From assembly GCF_011397635.1 (NCBI RefSeq), contig NC_064775.1, positions 15,513,452-15,577,451 on the forward strand: a stretch of DNA of 64,000 nucleotides. Reading direction: 5' to 3'. Position numbers and translations under genes: made by a program. Numbering within the stretch: the stretch's first letter is position 1; every line of letters starts with the position of its first letter. Positions 13,973-52,400 of the stretch are shown here, piece by piece. The notes under the pieces are model-generated. The model saw only the letters and a list, made by a program, of their open reading frames with translations. It did not search any database and was not told the DNA's origin. Source of the stretch: Epinephelus fuscoguttatus. Its lineage: Eukaryota; Chordata; Actinopteri; Perciformes; Serranidae.

Positions 13973-16900
13973 ATGGCTGAGCGCGGCTTACGACGAACTG
14001 ACAACAACCTGAGCGGATACCTGGCGCTGATGTCGGCTCTTTGTGAGGCTGCTTCAGAAATACGTCTGCAGGACGAGATGTAAAGGGAGATAAACTGGAG
14101 GGGAATGGAAGCACGTGTAGTTTGTTGTGAGTTATGAGGTCAGTCAGGGACACAAACAAACACGCGGTCAGTTGTTAGCTAGCTTACAGCTAAGCTAGCA
14201 GCTAAGCTAGCAGCTGTACAGATGATACATTAACTGTTTGGGGGTAAATAAACAAACGACCCGGCGGTAAATGCACCTGAATGAAACGAGGCGAAAATTA
14301 GACATTACTGTGAGAATTAACAAAACGTTTTAAATCGATTTAATTACAGTTTTCCTGCTGCTGTTGTCAGAGTAAATCATCTGCACCTGTGGATGAGCAG
14401 TTAGCTTCAGACTCTGAACATCAGGAGGAAAGCAAGATGGCGGCCGATAGACAGGAAGCCAGCAGCTATAGTTACTGTACAGACGTCATACGTGGTTCTT
14501 TTTTGTATCGTTTGTGTCGATAAATATGAATACTTTGAGTAATTAATGTGCGCATTAGATATGTTCAGCTGTAGTTTAATAAGTTATGGCTCAGTTTTAA
14601 TTTACATACATGATGAGCCTGTTTCTGTCATAGCCACACTTTACCACCTGCTGGAAATACTGGCACCATGCTCATGATAAGCTGGCAGATGTATCCTAGC
14701 AATATATCAGGTTACTCAGTGATGTAAAAGATTTTTGGATACACTAATTAACTCATTATGTGATCCTCATGTCTTCACTGTGAGACCCTGATGCCATCAT
14801 AATGAGATCCTGACTTTTTTTGGTTTGTCCCCATAATGGCATGATTATGACGCCAGATTGCTTTGAATGTGTTCAACAGGGTTCAACTTGAAACTAATGC
14901 AACTCAAAATTCTGATGACTACAACATATAAGCTGTTTAATCAGTGTGATTTAAGGAATTACTTTGTCTTTGTCGTTTCCCACAGGAAAGACACAAGGTG
15001 TTGGTGGAGGAGCAGCAGACTGGAAAGAGAAGAGGACTTCAAGGTGAGGAGAGGTGGACCGGAAAAACACAACCATTTCTACACAGCTGCAAACTGCAAC
15101 AGTCAAATGACATGATTTTTAAATTTGAATGACTGGGTGTCTCTTTTTTTTGCATCTCTGTGCTTCAGAAAAGTAGCAGGTGGAGAACCACAGGGACACA
15201 GGCAGAAGCAGCTCAGTCGCCTCTGGGACAAAGTAGAAGAGAAGCAGAGGATGCCGGACAAACTCAGAGTAAGCAGAATATTCTCCTGATCCTTTTTTTT
15301 TTAAAAAGATATTTATGTGGCATTTCAGCTTTTGAGTGATAGTTGATGGTGGTATGTGTCAAAACCACTTGACTACTTGGACATACATGTTTTAATTTTG
15401 ATTTTATTTTCTTATTTGTCACCTTTGTTACCAAATGAATGGACTGATAGACAGTGAAGGTCCCATTTAATTATTGTGAGTCATTTTGTCCCTTAAAGTA
15501 CCTCAGATGTGATAAATCTAAGTTGCTTTTAACTCCTTGTCACCATCATACCAGGCTCACTGTGATTACATGATCTGATTGTCAAAGTGTGACCCAGTAT
15601 ACATCTGTGTTTTGACCTATCTTGCATGAAAACTGATACAAAAAGTCTGTCTAAAAATGGCAAACCAGGATCTATTGTTGGAGCAGGAGAGACTTTATGT
15701 ATTTTAGAAATGTTGGTGTAAATGTATCTGTTTTCTGTCCAGACTGCTCGATGAACAAAGAGACTAAAAGGGCCTGAGAGTGATGAGTTGGAGCACATGG
15801 AACAAACATTTGGTAACTATCAAATCAACTAGTAGTTGTTGTAGCACTAGTTTTTGTAGTTGTAGAATTAGTAGTAGTTGGAGTCATTGTAGTCATAGAA
15901 GTAATTGTTGTAGCAGTAGAAGTTGTTATTTTAGTTGTAGAAATATTAGTTGATATGATAGTAGATATTAAAGTTCTAGTGGTAATCATGAAAAAGTATA
16001 GTATGCCATAAAAATGTGAAAATAAATGTCATAGTATAAGTCATATAGTTTGACATAAAAATTGAAAAAATTAGTATGCCATAAAAATACTGTGAGCAAT
16101 AGATTAATAAATGTCAAAGACTAATAAAAAAAGTCATAATATATTATGTCAGTAAAAGTGTACAAATAAGTCATAGTATGTCATACAAAAATAAAATAAA
16201 AAGTAATTGAAAAGTGGAAATAGTATAATATGCTATAAAATGTTAGAAGAAATAAATGTCAAGTCAAAAAGTCATAATATGGTATGTCAAAAAAATCATA
16301 AAAAAACAACATAATACAAGTATGTCATAAAAAAGTTTATTAAAAAAAAAGTCATAGTATACTATGTCATAGTATAGTATGTAAAAATCATAAAAAGTCA
16401 CAGTTAAGTATGTCATAGAAAAGTTAAAAAAAAAAAAAGTATAGTATGTCATAAAAATGTTATAAGAAATAAGTGTTGTGGTATAGTATGTAAAAGAAAA
16501 TCATTTAAAAAAGTCATAGTAAAGCATGTTATAGAAAAGTTATGGAAAAAAACCATAGTCTAGTATGCCATAATAAATCATAATAGCATAAAAAGTCCAA
16601 AAAAATAGTACATTAAATTAGTCATAGTAAATTAAAAAAAATCATACAAAGTCACAGGAGAGTATATCACAAAAAGGGAAAAAAAAGTCATAGTATAATA
16701 TGCCATAAAAAAGTAAAAAATTAAAAATGATTTTATGGTATGTCTTTAAAAAAATCATGGTATAGTATGTCAAAAGTGACAGATTAGAAAAACTAAAAAA
16801 AAAAATAGTATTTCATAAATTTAAAAAAAAGATAAATCTTAAAGTAATATTTAATTAAAAATATAGTTTTAAAAATGATAGTATATCATAATGAAATTTA

Positions 16901-17140
16901 ATTTTTGTCATAGTATAGTACCTCATAAGAAAATGGCATGCATAATAGCTGTTATATGTCATAGTTTTATTAGTTGTAGTTTGTAGACATGTATGTGAAG
17001 CAAATTCTTATACTGTCCCTCCTTTTCCTCTCCAGACTGAAGCTCAAGAAGACCCAGCATCAGAAGTCGATGTCTTCTTCTACTGTTCTGTGTGTCTCCT
17101 ATACTCATGTTTAAAGCGCTTTTTCATTAATTATAAATAA
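13973..17140 (+). CDS. possible small spliced gene, unrecognised
   Basis: A consistent splice pattern suggests a short gene. Exon 1 is 13973-14079 (ATG, 35 codons, donor GTAAAG). An exon at 15169-15268 has acceptor TTCAG and donor GTAAGC. A last exon at 17036-17140 has acceptor CTCTCCAG and ends with TAA overlapping AATAAA at 17136. Joined, these give 103 aa: a leucine/alanine-rich N-terminal helix, a charged middle (QKQLSRLWDKVEEKQRM) and a hydrophobic, cysteine-containing C-terminal segment. A further 58-nt exon-like block (14986-15043, CACAG..GTGAGG) would shift the frame if included and end the protein early. I recognise no family. It could equally be a non-coding RNA. The region around 13930-14450 is richer in CpG than its surroundings, as expected of a promoter. 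Confidence 0.35.
14173..14215. repeat. short tandem repeat of AGCTAAGCTAGC
   Basis: Overlapping self-complementary units of the form CAGCTAAGCTAG occur about three times, downstream of the putative exon at 13973. Confidence 0.6.
14434..14444 (+). promoter_or_regulatory. YY1-type site AAGATGGCGGC
   Basis: The 11-mer AAGATGGCGGC matches the long YY1 motif that commonly lies just downstream of CpG-rich transcription starts. It supports a promoter in the 13.9-14.5 kb region and could mark an alternative start, since its ATG has a strong context. Confidence 0.45.
15815..15960. repeat. degenerate (GTAGTT)n-like repeat
   Basis: Many GTAGTTGTAG, GTAGTAGTTG and similar trinucleotide-based units follow one another before the AT-rich block. 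Confidence 0.6.
15961..16970. repeat. AT-rich degenerate tandem repeat
   Basis: About 1 kb built from variants of AGTCATAGTATAGTATGTCA followed by A-rich spacers (ATAAAAAAGT). Unit spacing is irregular, so this is an old or unstable satellite-like array. It lies between the two last exons of the putative small gene. Confidence 0.7.
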
Positions 17141-17229
17141 ATATATAAAACTCACTGTTCCATAATCCCTTGTTTTTATCTTTTTGAAACACCGGGAGGA
17201 GACACACATCTCAACTCCCTTTTCCACCT

Positions 17230-18060
17230 CCACAGTGGAGCTCTGGACACAGTGCCCTCACAACGGTGAGAACCGAACCCAGCTCTGGCGCCTTCCAAAC
17301 CGGGAACTGACAGACCACGCCACCATGCCACGCACACTTGGAACTGTTCTCTTCGTGTATTTGTCTTCTTCATTTTGGGAATGATGTCTCAAAATTCACT
17401 GCACCAAATGAGGATTGAACTCTTGAACCTTTGGTTTGCAGACCCACCTTTTATCACCGTGAGCTGTTTGATCTGACACTGTAGCTGTTTCATAGAACTT
17501 TTGGTTTCTTCACTTTGGGTGTAGGACTTCAAAATCCACTGCACCATGTAAGAATTGAACCCACAGCCTCCAGTCTGCAAACCAGTGACTTATCACACTG
17601 AGCTATCTGATCGGACACTTCACATGTGTTTCTTTGAACTTTTGACTTCTTCACTTTGGGTGTTACAACTTCAAAGTTCACTAATAAGAGTTGAACCCTT
17701 GCTCTTCACTCTCAGGAACATCCTTGTATCAGCCTGAGCTATCTTTACCAACATGTCATTATTGTGTCTTGGCGTACTTGTCTCCTTCTCTTTGGGTGTG
17801 TGACCTCAAAAGTCATTGCAATACAAGGCTTGAACTCTCAACCACAAGTTACCAGAGGAGTTGTCTTTTACTCTGAGCTATTTGTCCAGAGATGTTTTGC
17901 CATTGTTTCATAGAGCCTTTGGATCTTCATGTTGTGTGTTGGACTTCAAAAGTCATTGACTTGCTTAAGGCTTGAGCTCATGTCCTCAAGATATCTGACT
18001 AGAGATCAAACACGATTGGCTACAGGGCCATGGGCACTGAAAGCATCATTTGAAGAACCT
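17230..18060 (-). repeat. ~140-bp tandem array of tRNA-like units
   Basis: The landmark CTTCACTTTGGGTGT and its variants recur near 17368, 17507, 17647, 17786 and 17926, a period of 139-140 bp. On the minus strand units carry an A-box-like TAGCTCAGTGTG (variants in the others; the most distal unit is the weakest) and, about 45 nt later, a B-box-like GTTCAATTC, GTTCAATCC, GTTCAACTC, GTTCAAGCC or GCTCAAGCC. That is normal tRNA spacing. Acceptor and anticodon stems do not pair well, so these are not intact tRNA genes. A more diverged unit may lie at 17230-17330. Origin from a tRNA-derived SINE or an amplified tRNA pseudogene is inferred. Confidence 0.65.
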
Positions 18061-19050
18061 TTCAGTCTTTCCTCTGCGTGTTGAATGTCAACAAACTTCC
18101 ACACAGATCCCCTGAGACGTTCAATCAGAGACAAGTCACTGCTGCTTCTTAGCATATTTGACTCTTTCCTTTTACAGCTTGTTCTCCAGACAGCTTTTAG
18201 GAGCAGCTTCATAAAGAGCCAGGTTATGTAAAATATCTAAAATTTTGACTGAAATAAAGGTTCACTCAAGTTGTAAACGTGTCTTTGGGTCAGTTCGCCA
18301 ACCCAAGCTTCGCCTCGGCAAGCTTACCAACACAGGAATGGGGTGTAAGTTTCTTTCATTGTATGGTGTCATCATGGGTGTCATTGCCAAAATAGGGTCC
18401 TATCATCAAAAAGCTATCACTTATCATTCATCTTGATAGTGGTACATCTGACTGGGTTGTGCGCTTCAGTTGGTTGGTTTACAAAGGGAATGTGCAAATG
18501 AAAATGGGGACTGACCAGTGCGAATTGCAAACTTGAGTGAGAATCATATTTTAAGTTTTCTTCAGTAGTAAAATAATCCAGTGATAGATGTGTGGATACA
18601 CTGCACACACAAACTGCTAGTAAATAATTTGGCATACTTTTAATGGTGCAAATTTGCCAAAATGTGAACAAATATAGGCAAAAAAGCGAGCTCAAACTAT
18701 CGCCCACTGCTAAATTAGTGATTCTAAAGCAACTGAGTACTTTCTGTTTACAAGTGTCAACAATAACAGGTAGTACATGCTTAAAAATGTAAATAAATAA
18801 ATTATATATGTATACAAACTTATGTATGTATACTAAAAAGCTGCTTGACACTGCTCAAGTTTAGAGTTCGGTAACTGATTTTATAGTGGTGCACCCAAGT
18901 CCCCAAATTTTTTTATTTCCTTGTTACTGACAAGGAAAGTATAATTTATATTTTTCTTGGTTAATGATTTGAAACTCAAGAGAATACAAACATCAATAAA
19001 ATACAGCACACGCCAACATTCATTGCAGTGAAAAAAAAAAAAAAAATTGC
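18061..19050. other. intergenic DNA between convergent genes
   Basis: No exon, RNA gene or clear repeat beyond a poly(A) run at about 19031-19046. The sequence lies between the tRNA-like array and the presumed 3' end of cacnb4. Confidence 0.5.
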
Positions 19051-49499: not shown

Positions 49500-52400
49500 C
49501 TGTCTTAAAGAGGAACAAGGTAACTATTTTGGACTCTAAGGGGAACTATTTTAGACTGAAACCACCAACAAGGAGTGATTAAAGACACATATTTAAGCTA
49601 CTTTTATTATAAGAATACAGACATTGCTAACCTGTAATATAGAGCAATGGTTCAAGTCTGTCTAACACAGATGTTTTGCTGTTGATGGTCACTGGCTCCC
49701 AAACTTTTTGGCTTGAGACCTCTTAAAATGAAGCAGCCCATTGTCAAAGGTTAATACAACTAAATAGAAATGTAGGTATCTTAGAAGCCTGGGAAGGCAA
49801 TATTAACCAGTAATTTACAAAAAAAGCAAATATTAGAGTAATGTAGTTTTTTGTATTTATATGTTTTCTGTTCCTGTTGTGTTCTGTTGTGCTGCATTGT
49901 CCTGCATCCCCTTATAAGTTATTTGTCTCTCAAACCCCTAACCCGCAGACATGGGCGTACAATGAGACAATGGGACCCTGGGCACAGATATGTAAAAGGC
50001 CCCACCACCTCTCTTACATAGGGGCAAGACACACTAGCATTTTGGTCACGCTATTGGGCTGCTACGAATTATACACAGAACCACACAATGGCAGCATCAT
50101 TCAACCCCTGTGTGTGATTTTAGAGGCAAAAGAAGCGTGACGGGCATAACAAGTGAGACAACAACGTCAGCATCGAGTGTGACATATGACATATGCTTGG
50201 CAGTTCTTTATAAACAAAAACAATGGCATAACATGGCAATAATAATTACTCATTCCTGTTATATGGCGGTTGATCTCATCACTCAGAGAGTAAGGAGCTC
50301 ATGGACCTCACTGTTTCCCAATTTGCGGACATTTTCAGCTGCTGTTCCTTGAGTTAGCTGCTAATTGCTACCAGCTACTCCCACAATGGGTCATGCATAT
50401 AATATGTCATCAAAATGTCACACCCGTGCCGCCCATGATCCCATCCTGGCATCCTGTTTTAGGGCTGTCACTAACTCTGATGTTGGCTTAAAGGCGAGAC
50501 AAGTCTGCGATTGTGCCCTTTATACAGAAGGGTGAGGTGGAATAAGGGCAAGAAATTCCTGCCTTGAAGAGGCAGTGTAAAAGGGGCTACAGGCTTTTTT
50601 GTTGTTGTTGTTTGCATCTCTTATGTCTCATTTTGTGTCTCTGAGGTCATTTTGTGACTGTATCTGTCGTCTTGTGTCTCTGTGTTTGTTTTGCCCCTTT
50701 TTTGTAGTTACTTTGTGTCTCTTTAAGGTCATTTTGTTTCTCTTTGAGGTAATATTGTGTCTCTTTTGACCATTTCGTGTCTTTGTGGTTATTTTGCCCC
50801 TGTTTGTAGGTTTTTTGTGTCTCTTTGCATTTCCTTTGCATCTCTTTGCGGGCAATTTGTGTCTCTTTAAGGTGGGTACATGTTTGAGAAACATTTTGCA
50901 AGCAAAGGGCATGGGGGGTTTGCCACTTTGAGCCCCAGAGCCTATGCCTGGTAGGCCCATTCAGTAATCCATTCATGCCTGCAGGTTAGGAACTACTGGT
51001 CCAAGTGAAAAGACAACTCTTGCAGGAAATAGAATTATGCATATATGCAAATCTTAATCCACTATTACTCATTAGGCGCCTAATTTAAATAATTGAATAT
51101 TACAGAAGCTGTCAAGGGACACCTCCAAATACCCCAGCCCCCGAAAACAGCTCACCTGAAACAGAAAATATCACTAATTTCAGGAGTCAGCTTCTTGCAG
51201 CAGGCTTACAGTTGCATTATGCTTCCTTGCCTCTCTTCCACTCTGAATGCTGCTAGTTCAGAAGTAGGCAATTAGGTCATGTATGTTTTGAGCTCTCACT
51301 GCAGGTTATCTAAAAAACTCTGAAAAATTGTACTCTTTAATTAGTTTATGTAGTTCATGATTTATTTTTAGTTAAGTTTTGTCTTGTTGTAGCAAACATT
51401 TAGCTGATATTTTACCCTCACCAGGAATATATTCTTCCCTTAACACATGCACAGTTATTCCTGTACCACTGGCAGACACACAAAGCATAATAGATGAATC
51501 TCCATGCTCAATGGCTGCCAAGAAGTTCTTTTATTCAAATCCTATTTTTCCCTAGACACACTGTTGGTGAGTGTGGCCAAATAATTCAGCTGTTGTTCTA
51601 TCAGTCCCCACAACTTTGTTCCAAAATTTCCAACACTTTTTTTCTCTGTGTTGAGATCACTGGTGAAGTTTCTGTCTGATGGTACTTCCGTGCAGATTGT
51701 GCTGTGGACAGTGGACTGTGCAAAACCTTCCTTTAGATCTTAGGAGCATTTAAGGTGGCTTCATTTTAGTTGCTAATATTCATGTCAGTAACAGAGGACA
51801 GTTGCAGTAAACTCCATGCTATCTCTCCCTTTGCCCAGCAGATGGCAGCATTATCAAAATAAAAGCAAGAATAAAAGCAGCTGAGGATGTCACTGTCCTT
51901 TGCACATTGCAGGACGAGGTGTGTTTTCACTGTTGCAGGTATAGAGGGAGATGTTGTTCCTTCATGGGCTTCATAAAGGTCCAGTCTCTGAAATAGGGCA
52001 CACTAACTTATGCAGAACATGAAAGCCCACAATCTATTGTTTGTCTTATGGAAGTGTAAGCCATCAACCTTGCTCACATTATCAGGACATTTTTTGTGGT
52101 ACAGAACATTTCTTGCGTGTCAAGAAGCCCTGCAGGAATTTAGCTACAGACACATTTTTTTTTTTTACATTTGAGCAATTTGTAACTCTGACTTTTCTAT
52201 TTCGAAACTTCCGGGGGACGAGAATAACCAAGAACACTTTGCCGTTGATCTGGCAAGTTCCTCCATCCATCTTCACTACTGAGTGCTTCTCATCGGCTTT
52301 TTCTGCAAGTTACTGTACCTGAGTGTCTCTGCACTCACCTGGTTGACCAAAGCAGTGAGATGGGCAACCTTTAAAATATCTAATGCTTTAAATAGCCATC

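Follow-up and report, generated by a model that had tools for sequence, protein, structure and literature searches.

A diverged family of tandem units with tRNA-like A and B boxes on one contig of the Epinephelus fuscoguttatus genome

Tandem repeats with tRNA-like Pol III sequence have been described in squamates and amphibians (PMC10702118). In the sections of that article drawn on here, the squamate repeats are SINE-derived satellites (sSats), most of which have a longer terminal unit, and the amphibian ones, from newt, frogs and Xenopus, are Pol III tandem repeats with tRNA-like sequence, namely PolIII/TAN of Cynops (~360 nt), OAX/satellite I of Xenopus, Rana/polIII (~250 nt, up to 10% of some genomes) and Hy/polIII (~200 nt). 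A preliminary description of an array in a 64,000-nucleotide stretch of the Epinephelus fuscoguttatus genome (hereafter the window) had stated that no element of this form was described, a claim that is too broad in view of these amphibian repeats and squamate sSats, as presented in those sections of PMC10702118.

The array in the window consists of five head-to-tail units (U1-U5) on the minus strand at 18030..17332, each 135-141 bp long, with spacings of 136-141 bp. Self-alignment of the region 17000-18400 gave E=3.7e-48 at one period, and the array is therefore not due to chance; the two-period alignment (8.4e-26) extends into a sixth, in-phase unit (from 17266), and the one-period alignment to 18091, that is, into a seventh unit present only as a partial, weak tail (18041..18091, minus strand) for which nhmmer gave no match. 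The tandem ~140-bp units first reported, five clear and perhaps six, are thus confirmed, as is the single orientation of their tRNA-like A and B boxes. Pairwise identity among U1-U5 is 0.50-0.66 and K2P distance 0.45-0.85, so the array must be old and without ongoing homogenisation. Tandem Repeats Finder did not list it at 17332-18030, and a five-unit nhmmer profile gave no other significant match across the 64 kb of the window, its best extra match (E=0.19, 18172-18130) adjoining the array.

U4 (17473..17613), with its A box at 17598-17605, B box GGTTCAATTCT at 17551-17561 and TTTT at 17531-17534, has the top combined A+B score of all window positions; the next score is a tie of U3, the terminal unit and two other sites. 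In U3 (17614..17748) the A box lies at 17734-17741 and the B box GGTTCAACTCT at 17687-17697, followed by TTT only; in U2 (17749..17889) the A box is at 17873-17880, the B box AGTTCAAGCCT at 17826-17836 and TTTT at 17808-17811; and U5 (17332..17472) has CAGCTCAC at 17459-17466, AGTTCAATCCT at 17411-17421 and TTTT at 17391-17394. The most decayed unit, U1 (17890..18030), keeps TAGCCAAT at 18015-18022, AGCTCAAGCCT at 17968-17978 and TTTT at 17948-17951, and its nhmmer value of 5.7e-32 is not independent, the profile having been built from the same window units. The array ends in a GC-rich terminal unit (17191..17331, minus strand; 58% over 17200-17331) that retains the A-like TGGCGTGG (17315-17322) and a B-like GGTTCGGTTC (GGTTCGGTTCT, 17269-17279). 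A perfect 12-nt inverted repeat (TGTGTGTCTCCT) has one copy outside this unit, at 17089-17100, and the other inside, at 17197-17208.

The A box TAGCTCAG is exact in three of the five window units, those of U5 and U1 being the variants given above. A B-box core had been claimed for four of the five and is found in them as GTTCAA, with one mismatch in U1; the A box had been placed about 45 nt before it, and the A-to-B distance in U3 and U4 is 44 nt. A canonical A+B scan (spacing 40-49 nt) of 300,004 bases on both strands, at loci mostly chosen for their arrays, gave 12 sites with a score of 16/18 or more, of which 11 lie in family units, with spacings of 43-45 nt; the box consensuses used in the scans were general-knowledge motifs. 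On the minus strand of 17181-18170, T4 runs occur at one place per unit only, ~20 nt past the B box in four of the five units, and by our count 21 of 26 family units have a T4 run close to where it is expected. Type 2 Pol III units are laid out in this way, with an A box and a B box at tRNA spacing and a T-run after them.

Related units occur at six further places of the same 1.05-Gb genome, all on C24, the contig that carries the window (22.36 Mb of 1,047 Mb; window array at 15.53 Mb). A genome search with the window array as query gave 12 matches, the window included, at five candidate places, all on C24; besides the window these are arrays at 2.763-2.765, 5.058-5.060 and 14.864-14.866 Mb and one partial unit at 20.463 Mb. 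Flank scans with a 26-unit profile added five matches at 5.045-5.046 Mb and two clear ones at 20.4496-20.4499 Mb. The 14.86-Mb array as query gave 10 matches, all at its own locus and in the window, and the terminal unit of the 5.058-Mb array matched two places, both on C24; these counts are lower bounds, as the search passes over very common words and scores few candidates. The profile scan covered 200 kb (160 kb of C24 flanks and 40 kb from four other contigs) and had no match in the latter, a small control. Restriction of the family to C24 is thus indicated, not proven, because the counts are lower bounds, common words are skipped and the 40-kb control is small. All places found lie at least 1.9 Mb from the C24 ends.

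The window and four loci together gave 34 profile matches. The 26-unit alignment has 25 distinct rows, and 24 units entered the tree, from which the near-identical inverted copies L13f and L13g were left out. Two of 23 candidates, L013:4878-5019 and L014:4867-5008, were kept out of the alignment as partial or overlapping, as were candidates below 30 bits, and neither a weak L025 match (E=0.022, G+C 0.2) nor a third L030 match (E=0.76) was counted as a unit.

How does this family compare with the described repeats? According to the parts of PMC10702118 used here, sSats likewise have short tandem units, a tRNA-related head and mostly a longer terminal unit, and a distinct terminal unit is present at one end of the window, 14.86-, 5.058- and 2.763-Mb arrays. 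By the same account, the likeness among sSat units is mostly 82-97% and their source SINEs are known, whereas the window units are 50-66% alike, with no parent SINE seen; the main snake sSat unit (67 nt) corresponds to the 3' portion of the head, B box included, whereas the C24 units have both boxes and a T-run; and sSat loci prefer subtelomeres, unlike the C24 places. The amphibian Pol III repeats, as treated in those sections of PMC10702118, are also tandem, include a tRNA-like stretch (in doubt for Hy/polIII) and have no SINE confirmed as their parent; their units are however longer, and Rana/polIII reaches 10% of some genomes. We searched the literature on repeats, SINEs, tRNA and TFIIIC at the level of titles, none of which names the C24 family. 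As judged from its sequence, the family is of the same general kind as sSats and the amphibian repeats and not a member of a named family, and it appears to stand apart by its divergence, its two boxes with a T-run, the lack of a seen parent SINE and its known distribution.

Two further systems invite comparison. In tRNA-derived SINEs the head is tRNA-like, its A and B boxes being spaced as in a tRNA, which also applies to the C24 units, and the body is free of Pol III terminators up to its end; in the C24 family the T4 run lies inside the unit. Of the earlier readings as tRNA-derived or SINE sequence, that of a tRNA-derived tandem family stands, and that of a simple dispersed SINE is less apt, given two genome places for the terminal unit of one array, matches on C24 only and an internal T-run, in a search that skips very common words. 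The three genome searches, with that same omission, matched C24 only, with no SINE parent seen. ETC sites keep mainly the B box. Like tRNA gene clusters and tDNA/ETC insulators, the C24 arrays are sets of A and B boxes kept without a foldable tRNA; unlike ETC sites, many C24 units keep both boxes.

The reading that we prefer, at about even confidence, is that of a tandem family of tRNA-derived, Pol III-type units which has been copied along one chromosome and whose promoter boxes are under weak constraint. Each ~140-bp unit would comprise a ~75-bp tRNA-like stretch, with A and B boxes ~44 nt apart, a T-run ~20 nt past the B box and a spacer that follows the T-run and sits upstream of the next unit. 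The units would have arisen by tandem duplication, after which arrays or parts of them were presumably copied elsewhere on the same chromosome. Each pair of boxes is most likely bound by TFIIIC, as predicted from the motifs, and at least formerly the units may have given ~95-nt RNAs ending at the T-run. Such predicted binding would hold back change in the boxes relative to the rest, even as the tRNA fold is lost.

A less probable alternative, which remains serious, is that of a SINE-derived satellite in decay: a tRNA-headed SINE was duplicated in tandem, spread by segmental duplication and now drifts neutrally, and the slowness of its boxes would stem from ancestral uniformity, alignment anchoring or gene conversion rather than from present use. 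The outline that sSats share with the array, of short tandem units with a mostly longer terminal one (in the cited parts of PMC10702118), agrees with it, as does the strong divergence of the window units without homogenisation. Conservation within the window also lends it weight. Over the five units, the A and B boxes each score 0.76, the remaining tRNA half 0.47 and the spacer 0.63; A+B together exceed all other sites (0.76 vs 0.56, p=0.004), but not significantly the spacer (p=0.058), of which the blocks TTTTGAAG (0.83) and CACCCAAAGTGAAGAAG (0.77) equal or surpass the boxes, the spacer blocks being thus about as conserved as the boxes. On whether the boxes are conserved no better than the rest, the window therefore gives a divided answer, better than the rest of the sites and not significantly better than the spacer. 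The selective conservation of the boxes proposed at first is accordingly supported against all other sites, and with 24-26 units from four loci, and is not established against the window spacer.

At the level of the family, the B box and the A box are conserved beyond their surroundings, even though the difference from the spacer is not significant on the five window units. By tree-based site rate (24 units, mean 1.0), the slowest 8-mers are the A box TAGCTCAG (0.45) and the B box GGGTTCAA (0.46), and the next-slowest distinct blocks are AAGTCAAA (0.53) and TGAATTTT (0.57). In the same 24 units, the B box taken with two degenerate positions has an unremarkable rate of 0.74, a third of windows being equally slow, and so has the T-run ATTTTGA (0.62, equalled by 15% of windows). 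In eight sister pairs, five between loci and three within, A+B differ in 21 of 118 cells against 324 of 934 elsewhere (Fisher p=1.6e-4), about half the frequency of other sites, with cells within a pair not independent and tree support of at most 63 for four of the eight; the T-run differs in 12 of 54 cells. When the boxes and T-run were masked in the profile of window units, 21 units were found elsewhere (L013-L015), and their boxes proved near-intact, with on average 1.14 mismatches of 8 in the A box (3.52 when shuffled) and 0.52 of 6 in the B core (2.09 when shuffled). At L016, L022 and L030, the units that the unmasked profile had recovered were all missed by the masked one; detection bias is reduced and not removed, because L013-L015 had been fetched by unmasked matches and the other three loci were missed. 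Counted from the alignment of 26 units, TAGCTCAG is exact in 14 and GTTCRA present in 20; both boxes are lost in L14h and L15e, and L14g and L15f are degraded.

These comparisons favour constraint on the A and B boxes of the family, whose slow-changing motifs could still be in use, and the low difference between sister units and the near-intact boxes found under masking argue against simple decay of a satellite. So does the position of TTTT inside the unit, which would tend to end a Pol III transcript before the spacer. No parent SINE has been found, the terminal unit of the 5.058-Mb array having two genome places, both on C24, in a search that skips common words, and the unit profile lacks a match in the 40 kb from four other contigs, which is little sequence. 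We infer that the slowness of the boxes reflects present selection.

The fold of a tRNA has fared differently from its promoter. Over the 26 units, the paired cells amount to 39.5% for the acceptor, 43% for the D, 69% for the anticodon and 79% for the T stem; cloverleaf pairing is 56.7% overall, against 33.7-48.4% for slid versions. A conserved cloverleaf was rejected despite the T stem, as the covariation score was equalled by 37 of 500 shuffles and RNAalifold predicted no pair on the family alignment. That the stems needed for a tRNA are not preserved is mostly borne out by the acceptor and D values and by RNAalifold, and the view that the boxes remain while the fold decays was right in outline. 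Because the boxes are kept and the fold is not, a role at the level of DNA, as docking sites of TFIIIC, is more likely for the core units than a structured RNA product, and an insulator or TFIIIC role of the arrays is possible. As to tRNA identity, the place that we take to be that of the anticodon suggests GCA in U4 and U5 and GAA in the family consensus.

The terminal units call for separate treatment. Between the window and the 14.86-Mb array, identity is 98-100% over 150 bp (17237-17386) and then falls to 86% and 52-72% (50-column blocks); the window terminal unit from 17237 on thus matches that of the 14.86-Mb array at 98-100%, and a unit at C24:14.864 Mb shares 98% identity with the 3' part of U5 (17337-17386). 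Between the 5.058- and 2.763-Mb arrays, identity is likewise 94-100% over 150 bp, then 50-76% (50-column blocks). Selection or gene conversion would each suffice to explain such near-identical terminal islands. The terminal unit might be a functional non-coding RNA gene, with the upstream units as older tandem pseudogene duplicates, an explanation of the arrays that we consider unlikely. Both pairs of islands are in line with it, and the 5.058/2.763-Mb terminal unit is a candidate small-RNA gene by folding and by its boxes: an ~80-nt hairpin of -41.6/-46.1 kcal/mol (z -4.7/-4.4; L014:3495-3592 and L015:3899-3996, minus strand) goes with strong A and B boxes scoring 17/18 at 43 nt. Against this, the window terminal unit has a fold that shuffled sequence matches (z of 0.72, 0.01 and 0.12 over three stretches) and a weaker B box (7/9), the stretch examined downstream of the 5.058-Mb terminal unit has no T4 run, the identity islands could be gene-conversion tracts, and the retention of boxes in the other units is left without explanation.

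The tree bears on how the arrays spread. Support is 100 for L14c/L15c, 93 for U5/L13a and 73 for L14a/L15a, which suggests that units of different arrays can be closer to each other than to their neighbours, as if whole arrays had been copied, with the cautions that the 3' part of U5 lies within the near-identical island and that L14c and L15c fit the unit badly in their tails. We infer such copying for the preferred reading of a Pol III-type family under weak constraint. The 14.86-Mb arrays form an inverted repeat at L013:3793-5434 (C24:14864292-14865933), in which two 479-bp arms, 99% identical, are separated by 684 bp and each contain a terminal unit and tRNA-like units; as read from its arrangement, it could be a source of double-stranded RNA.

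Upstream of the window array, on the plus strand, lies an ETS/PEA3 gene (PF04621), and a calcium-channel beta-3-like C-terminus is found on the minus strand at 23.2-23.5 kb of the window (E=5.9e-5); the 14.86-Mb array is ~13 kb from a SOX gene. Window 15112-15865 and L013:1433-2193 share 70% identity over 800 aligned columns, upstream of both arrays. The window segment is an exon-like plus-strand sequence which, by eye, seems to hold an in-frame stop. Apart from this likeness, the 70 best cross-locus flank matches revealed no gene family that all arrays have in common. The window further contains an AT-rich repeat of CATAGTATAGTATGYCATAAAA-like units at 16266-16900, with similar stretches near the L013, L014 and L015 arrays, a tandem repeat of 21/102-bp units (TTTGTGTCTCTTTGAGGTCAT-like) at 50674-50873, and, at 909-1334 on the minus strand, part of a reverse transcriptase (PF00078) that probably belongs to a LINE-type element.

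That the arrays are clusters of ordinary tRNA genes in decay, i.e. tandem tRNA pseudogenes, is barely credible. The tRNA-like layout with its 44-nt A-B spacing fits, and by eye a unit at C24:5.045 Mb has a 6-bp acceptor-like match (GCCTCG/CGAGGC), in a piece that, folded without its 5' half, did no better than shuffles. Yet ARAGORN (bacterial code) found no tRNA in the arrays examined, nor did Rfam, with E up to 10 in parts of the window, L014 and L022 and at gathering score in the window and L013-L016; the acceptor and D stems are paired in only ~40% of cells, and the spacer is conserved along with the unit. A vault or other known RNA was rejected likewise, Rfam having given no tRNA or vault match in 16900-18400 up to E=10, no match to its Vault model and otherwise unrelated weak matches or none. 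A coding origin was dismissed, as the units contain indels and array translations match mainly repeats at other loci among the matches listed, and an upstream PSE-like promoter, seen in CACCCAAAGTGAAGAAG at 8-9/13 in U2-U4 with a general-knowledge consensus, was dropped because a score of 8 is attained at 1,174 of ~128,000 window positions and one of 9 at 215.

What might such arrays do? One far-reaching proposal, suggested by the sequences and in our view a long shot, is that they are chromosome-restricted TFIIIC-docking arrays, in which dozens of A/B-box pairs would be selected after loss of the fold, spread within the chromosome and serve as its own boundary, pairing or expression-domain element, the terminal units being conserved small-RNA genes. 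The sections of PMC10702118 drawn on here give few vertebrate examples of tandem repeats that derive from tRNA and lack a SINE parent. If the boxes of the C24 family are indeed slower, its units lack a SINE parent and it belongs to one chromosome, it would allow one to ask in nature whether selection acts on TFIIIC sites as DNA, apart from any RNA; if the constraint proves false, it would instead clearly exemplify how tandem tRNA-derived repeats are lost by drift.
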